NCBI GenBank assembly: GCA_037042915.1
Contig: CM073196.1
Span: 2,480,001 to 2,544,000 of the forward strand
Direction of reading: 5' to 3'
Source: Auricularia sp. M13
Taxonomy: Eukaryota; Basidiomycota; Agaricomycetes; Auriculariales; Auriculariaceae
Length of the DNA stretch: 64,000 bases
How positions within the stretch are numbered: the first letter of the stretch is position 1; each line of letters starts with the position of its first letter. The notes below the pieces were generated by a model. The model saw only the letters and a program-made list of their open reading frames with translations. It had not been told where the DNA came from and did not search any database. Below, piece by piece: positions 2,151 to 2,878 of this stretch. The translations under genes and the position numbers were made by a program.

Positions 2151-2878
2151 ATGAGCAACGTTGACTGGGACTCGAAAACCGTCATTGGCAAGAAGGCTAG
2201 GGCGCCAGCGGTAACTCGCACAGAATCCGAGTTGAACTGTACGTCGGATGGCCTTTATCAACGGCCTTGCGAGCTGACGCTTTGCTGGTAGCTGTACGAC
2301 TTTGTCTCCATGTACAGGCGCATGGCTGATCATTGACATGCTATAGGCCCGCCGCGCTGGTCTTGTCGTCTCGACCGACAAGAAGTCGTCAGCTGCCAAC
2401 AAAGCCCATGCCGCCGCTGCTGGTAAGCGAATAGGAGCTCTGCACTTCTCCCAAACATGCAGTCTCACGAATTGAAAGGTCCTGACCACCAGCGCATTGC
2501 TAAGCTCGACCGCGAAAACGAGGTTGCGCCGCCTCCCAAGGTTCCCCCAGTGTCGGGAAGGTGCGCACGTAATGAAGTACGAGCGTGGCGCGTGGCTGAC
2601 CACCATATGACTAGGCCATCTCGACAGCACGGCTAGAGCTCAAGTTGACGCAGAAGGACCTCGCTCAGAAAATCAACGAGAAGCCGTCCGTCCTGCAAGA
2701 TTACGAGTCCGGCAAGGCCGTGCCCAACGTGCAGATCCTCTCCAAGATGGAGCGCGCACTAGGTGTCAAGCTTCGTGGTATGTTTGGCTTGGACTATCTT
2801 CAACTGCTCGGTTTTAATGACCACGCAGGCAACGACATTGGCAAGAAACTTCCGCAGAAGGGCGCGGACAAGAAGTAA
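2151..2878 (+). CDS. MBF1: Multiprotein-bridging factor 1 (transcriptional coactivator)
   Basis: Exons 2151-2238, 2292-2293, 2347-2422, 2479-2560, 2615-2777 and 2829-2878 encode about 153 residues of a typical Mbf1: an N-terminal MBF1 domain (SKTVIGKK, then [13 protein letters not shown]) and a C-terminal Cro/C1-type helix-turn-helix ([16 protein letters not shown], then [10 protein letters not shown]) ending with GNDIGKK. Mbf1 bridges gene-specific activators such as Gcn4 to TBP in the nucleus. Two oddities: exon 2 is only two bases, and the C5 run at 2544-2548 must be six bases to read the conserved PPSVGKAIS; as sequenced the frame is lost before exon 5. The second break looks like a homopolymer undercall because both flanks are perfectly conserved. 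Confidence 0.93.
2292..2293 (+). other. Two-base micro-exon of MBF1
   Basis: The dinucleotide CT lies between two 53-nt introns, 2239-2291 (GTACGT...CTGAC...TAG) and 2294-2346 (GTACGA...TTGAC...TAG). With it exon 1 (phase 1) joins exon 3 in frame and yields LN-S-ARRAG, matching the family's LNAARRxG. Without it the frame is lost by two bases. Confidence 0.72.

Follow-up and report, generated by a model that had tools for sequence, protein, structure and literature searches.

Internal exons of one or a few nucleotides have been described in both fungi and plants. A one-nucleotide exon of CYP621A P450 genes is reported in 20 Fusarium orthologs, for two species together with SRA reads (Nelson and Syed 2026, PMC12940212). 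The Arabidopsis gene APC11 contains a one-nucleotide exon that was shown by experiment (Guo and Liu 2015, PMC4674806), and when this exon was engineered to two bases (A to TT) the TT was reported in the cDNA of Arabidopsis protoplasts, with mis-splicing in rice (PMC4674806). Plant micro-exons of 1-15 nt, including a one-base exon of VPS55, are described by Yu et al. 2022 (PMC8831610), and Nelson and Syed state that Arabidopsis, Drosophila, and humans are known to have exons of 2-5 bp (PMC12940212). Because one-base exons have been published and exons of 2-5 bp are known, a size of two bases is not new as such. Volfovsky et al. 2003 is probably the source of Nelson and Syed for the exons of 2-5 bp.

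The window analyzed here is a stretch of 64,000 nucleotides from Auricularia sp. M13 (C4:2480001-2544000 in a genome of 52.1 Mb and 14 contigs). It contains an MBF1 gene on the + strand, which codes for a conserved protein and extends from the ATG at 2151 to the stop codon TAA at 2876-2878. Positions 2292-2293 are predicted from the DNA, with a probability of roughly 0.87, to be a constitutive two-nucleotide coding exon of this gene, and the splicing of the exon, its order, and its constitutive use are predictions of the same kind. The features of the gene are as follows, with a slash at each splice junction and with scores from the splice model described below.

2151..2238, + strand, exon 1: from the ATG, ending in phase 1 with a T (...GAG TTG AAC T); PF08523 positions 2-26
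2239..2291, + strand, predicted intron 1: 53 nt; ACT/GTACGTC ... GGTAG/C; branch CTGAC (A2277); score 8.86, 87th percentile of 660
2292..2293, + strand, predicted two-base exon CT: with T2238 forms the codon TCT (Ser)
2294..2346, + strand, predicted intron 2: 53 nt; GCT/GTACGAC ... CTATAG/G; branch CTGAT (A2329) or TTGAC (A2336); score 6.97, 57th percentile of 660
2347..2422, + strand, exon 3: starts GCC CGC CGC GCT GGT in phase 0; PF08523 positions 28-51; end from the gene-finder parse
2423..2478, + strand, predicted intron 3: 56 nt; GTAAGC...AAAG; 55th percentile
2479..2564, + strand, exon 4: gene-finder parse; 3' end uncertain, with an in-frame GC donor at 2565 and a strong out-of-frame GT donor at 2561
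2615..2777, + strand, exon 5: helix-turn-helix domain; PF01381 match in the joined protein and alignment to yeast MBF1
2829..2878, + strand, exon 6: includes the stop TAA at 2876-2878; gene-finder parse

The identity of the gene was clear from its 154-aa product (with the GC donor at exon 4), in which both the N-terminal MBF1 domain (PF08523, 89.2 bits, cut-off 22.2) and the helix-turn-helix domain (HTH_3, PF01381, 53.8 bits, cut-off 23) scored above the Pfam cut-offs. Two conserved coding blocks, exon 1 ending in phase 1 and exon 3 starting in phase 0, are separated by 108 bases. These exons matched PF08523 separately, at profile positions 2-26 and 28-51, and because of the gap between 26 and 28 exactly one residue is owed, which corresponds to two bases after T2238. 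Within the 108 bases, the sequence TAG/CT/GTACG at 2289-2298 places a very short candidate coding exon directly between an AG acceptor and a GT donor. The Ser encoded by TCT falls at position 27 of the MBF1 profile, at the LN-x-ARRxG site, and the alignment to yeast MBF1 was free of gaps there (INAARR in yeast versus LNSARR, or IN-A-ARRQG versus LN-S-ARRAG). The Pfam MBF1 score was 89.3 bits with the Ser and 80.9 without the residue. If CT is skipped by a single intron at 2239-2346, the frame shifts and a stop is reached after 56 residues. CT is required for both the reading frame and the conserved protein, and since skipping it breaks the frame, its inclusion should be the productive form.

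The preliminary description of this DNA had placed two 53-nt GT-AG introns at 2239-2291 and 2294-2346 with CT at 2292-2293 between them, and these coordinates and bases were confirmed, as was the product LN-S-ARRAG, with one residue where the PF08523 profile and yeast MBF1 require one. It had also held that the 108 bases could not be one in-frame intron, which is correct for 2239-2346, where a frameshift results, but too general, as six in-frame, stop-free parses with a single intron were listed along with 51 with two introns (GT or GC donors, introns of at least 35 nt). All six end at 2346 and take their donors from inside exon 1 (GT at 2160, 2181, and 2211, and three GC). Of the branch sites it named, CTGAC stands for intron 1, while intron 2 is ambiguous: CTGAT (A2329, at 18 nt) scored 2.41 and the named TTGAC (A2336, at 11 nt) 1.41. 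The equal lengths of the two introns carry little weight because the median intron of this DNA is itself 53 nt long, and 51 of the 660 predicted introns have that length.

Splice signals were learned with a gene-finder that was trained without homology on 264 kb, made up of the window plus two flanks of 100 kb. Training yielded 93 genes and 665 introns with a median length of 53 nt (5-95% range 46-68 nt), a GTRNGY-like donor, and a CTGAC-like branch site about 14 nt before the intron end. These introns are predictions rather than cDNA-verified, and since intron seeds were 45-70 nt and lengths of 40-160 nt were allowed, the length curve is biased toward short introns. The five introns of MBF1 were excluded from the splice signals, leaving 660 introns for the percentiles. 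MBF1 was kept among the 93 genes of the coding model for the percentile, shuffle, parse, and nested-intron tests, and the branch sites were picked by a model that had seen the MBF1 introns; in a later control the MBF1 gene model was also dropped from the coding model, and a flat length term was tried.

The gene-finder arrived at the two-base exon without prompting, and did so once more in a stricter rerun that penalized GC donors. A different 2-nt exon in the first run vanished in the stricter rerun, while that of MBF1 was present in both, which indicates that a tiny exon called elsewhere in one run of the model should not be trusted. In the stricter run, 23 of the 545 internal exons predicted across the window and both 100-kb flanks were 12 nt or shorter.

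The best gene-finder parse also fused MBF1 to its upstream neighbor, a mistake that reflects the simplicity of the model. In that upstream gene the model placed introns 977-1030 and 1031-1085 back to back around a zero-base exon with an AG/GT junction; this is possibly a recursive splice site, or simply one intron of 109 nt. No Pfam match was obtained for a 1162-aa open frame or for either of two overlapping stretches from the upstream gene.

Both introns flanking CT are complete and typical of this genome. Among the 660 introns, the score of intron 1 (8.86) was at the 87th percentile and that of intron 2 (6.97) at the 57th, compared to the 9th for a single 108-nt intron (1.94) and the 7th for an intron from a donor at 2211 (1.17). 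The sites that face the two-base exon were weaker, with acceptor 1 at the 20th percentile and donor 2 at the 15th. When all parses of 2151-2422 with no more than two introns, each of 38 nt or longer, were scored, with GC donors held at 1%, the posterior of the two-base exon was 0.99994 over 1088 stop-free parses and 0.99995 over the 350 with exon 3 in the MBF1 frame; these posteriors are the model's own, and errors in the sequence do not enter into them. Dropping the MBF1 gene model from the coding model as well gave values of 0.99993 and 0.99994, respectively. Much of the margin stems from intron length, as the two-base exon received 0.944 (0.947 in the MBF1 frame) when the length term was flat.

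The chance of such an arrangement was estimated by shuffling the inner 77 of the 108 bases while the first 6 and last 25 were fixed. A frame-restoring intron pair as good as the one found arose in 25 of 20000 mononucleotide shuffles and 23 of 20000 dinucleotide shuffles, or about 1 in 800. Two introns at least this strong and two bases apart occurred once in the 264 kb on both strands, and this case was MBF1; for spacings of 0 to 11 bases, the same scan gave five cases (two at a spacing of 9 and a single case each at 2, 5, and 6). Taken together, the sequence evidence for the two-base exon, the best of the parses tested, is strong.

Several other readings of the 108 bases were weighed. Predicted introns of 100 nt or more do exist, though they are rare (8 of the 660), and when the length term is left out the signals of a single 108-nt intron at 2239-2346 match those of either short intron (7.25 versus 6.54 and 4.55). 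These could be the true signals if an assembly base error or a real frameshift allele at the junction had upset the frame and the inner AG-CT-GT were there by chance. Such a reading needs a rare length, an error within a few specific bases, and the roughly 1 in 800 configuration all together; with the length term it scores 1.94 against 8.86 and 6.97, and there is no homopolymer around 2238. In its favor is a second one-base frame discrepancy within MBF1, at exon 4/5, on which the preliminary description was silent. The strongest intron there, 2561-2614 (score 8.5; donor AAG/GTGCGC), is out of frame by one and leads to a stop after 89 residues, while the best in-frame choice uses a weak GC donor at 2565 (3.9) and adds a Cys with no counterpart in yeast MBF1. 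This junction is either a real GC-AG intron or a one-base fault in the sequence or allele. Its frame problem points, if only as a hint, to an erroneous base or a damaged allele, which makes a fault at the first junction somewhat more probable too. However, a fault at exon 4/5 alone leaves the inner AG-CT-GT and two good introns unexplained, and a single intron with a fault at its junction appears unlikely.

The runner-up among the parses was one intron of 136 nt, from the donor GTAACT at 2211 to 2346, which is in frame and stop-free and received 0.041 of the probability when length was ignored. Its donor, however, is at the 5th percentile and its posterior with length is 5e-5. The resulting MBF1 would be without ten residues of the conserved N-terminal block, LN included, and the drop in Pfam score from 89.3 to 63.6 bits is evidence separate from the splice model; this intron is very improbable. 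Still less can be said for a longer micro-exon, of 14 or 20 nt from position 2274 on, that would follow a first intron of 35 nt. Either length would be in frame and stop-free, but the 35-nt intron scores -6.27, below all 660 training introns (training minimum 40 nt), and the 20-nt exon inserts residues into the conserved site (Pfam 79.8). Equally hard to credit is a stwintron, a type of intron established in fungi (PMC12403724, PMC8469720), in which an internal intron would leave first to rebuild or join the signals of an external intron, with none of the 108 bases kept. The 43 in-frame, stop-free nested parses (GT donors, internal score of at least 0) reach at most 10.5, compared to 15.9 for the adjacent pair, and all ten of the 43 that were displayed delete residues. 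In addition, both introns at this locus already have full signals, and neither interrupts a splice signal of the other.

The equal lengths of the introns prompted the idea that a 55-nt unit of CT and intron had been duplicated in tandem, which was rejected because the introns were no more alike than shuffled sequences: 22 of 55 positions match, and the alignment score was attained in 22% of 2000 shuffles. An introner-like element was also rejected, as a search of the genome with the 121-bp region turned up no further copy. Neither a second MBF1 copy nor a second haplotype was found in the genome, and a search of the genome-contig collection for orthologs found no relative. The viral-contig collection gave only four MBF1 matches, at 36% identity and to the C-terminal part only, which are uninformative about exon layout, and an intron-blind Pfam family search over the same genome gave no match, the controls likewise being unmatched. 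Independent insertion of two introns two bases apart would be the simplest reading. For the Fusarium exon, Nelson and Syed propose the loss of an exon base and its rescue through a cryptic exon (PMC12940212); a similar origin is possible for the MBF1 exon but would need an ancestral intron of 108 nt.

If CT is a two-base exon, two complete and ordinary introns would lie two bases apart, one in phase 1 within a codon and the other in phase 0 after it. Each has a donor, branch site, and acceptor of its own and would be recognized through them across the intron, and because acceptor 1 and donor 2 are too close together for two spliceosomes at the same time, the introns would be removed sequentially, leaving CT joined to T2238 in the Ser codon at profile position 27. 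The score of donor 2 is nearly equal before and after the removal of intron 1 (2.72 and 2.84), so either order is possible; intron 1, with the higher total score, may be the first to leave. Fungi mostly use intron definition. The suggestion in the preliminary description that the exon challenges exon-definition models was overstated, since the introns are ordinary short ones and intron definition with sequential removal suffices, as Guo and Liu argued for APC11. These authors considered intron definition with successive intron removal more plausible for a one-base exon, and they cite a 9-nt exon of potato invertase for which the second intron is removed first (PMC4674806). The U1 component PRP-40/PRPF40A is reported to be globally required for micro-exon splicing in C. 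elegans (PMC8378409) and in mouse cells (PMC11463390). It is conceivable, though doubtful, that sequential splicing acts as an obligatory frame check that keeps a natural constitutive two-base exon, that departures in site use would give frameshifted transcripts, and that, with the strong out-of-frame donor of exon 4, MBF1 output is tuned by unproductive splicing.

The MBF1 exon can be set beside several described systems. In stwintrons, as is predicted for MBF1, a pair of introns leaves a single site in succession, but one member of the pair breaks up a splice signal of its partner (PMC12403724, PMC8469720), whereas the predicted MBF1 introns are complete and have two coding bases between them. 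The Xlr2 gene of Trichoderma virens, likewise a filamentous fungus, has a functional micro-exon that is included alternatively depending on glucose, as a switch between two proteins (PMC11121469); skipping in MBF1 breaks the frame, and no switch is expected. The P450 genes of Phanerochaete chrysosporium, also a basidiomycete, have frequent introns of 45-55 bp and short exons, and the shortest exon given for them is 6 bp, compared to 2 in MBF1 (PMC1184071). Like the MBF1 exon, plant micro-exons are tiny, needed for the frame and for a conserved protein, and those of plants were missed by annotation; unlike it, they are supported by RNA-seq and RT-PCR and form conserved clusters (PMC8831610). 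APC11 resembles the MBF1 prediction in having a constitutive exon much smaller than the size once supposed to be the limit, for which sequential, intron-defined splicing was proposed (as is inferred for MBF1), but it is a plant gene with a combined intron of 422 nt (PMC4674806).

What distinguishes the MBF1 case is a predicted exon of exactly two bases between two 53-nt introns, and no fungal exon of exactly two bases was among the matches listed in the open-access literature, where the search aimed most closely at such exons gave a single unrelated paper. A natural two-base exon would be a compact and genetically tractable test of how an acceptor and a donor share two bases, and of whether the order of intron removal is fixed, and it illustrates how annotation pipelines could lose the frame of a conserved gene. 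CYP621A of Fusarium differs from MBF1 in that its exon is one base, belongs to Ascomycota, and has a G that fits the splice consensus, which the CT of MBF1 does not (PMC12940212). Both cases nevertheless come from fungi with short introns, were found through mismatched phases of the flanking exons, and place the exon inside a conserved protein motif, and in both the combined intron is more than twice the median (139 nt in F. graminearum; PMC12940212).
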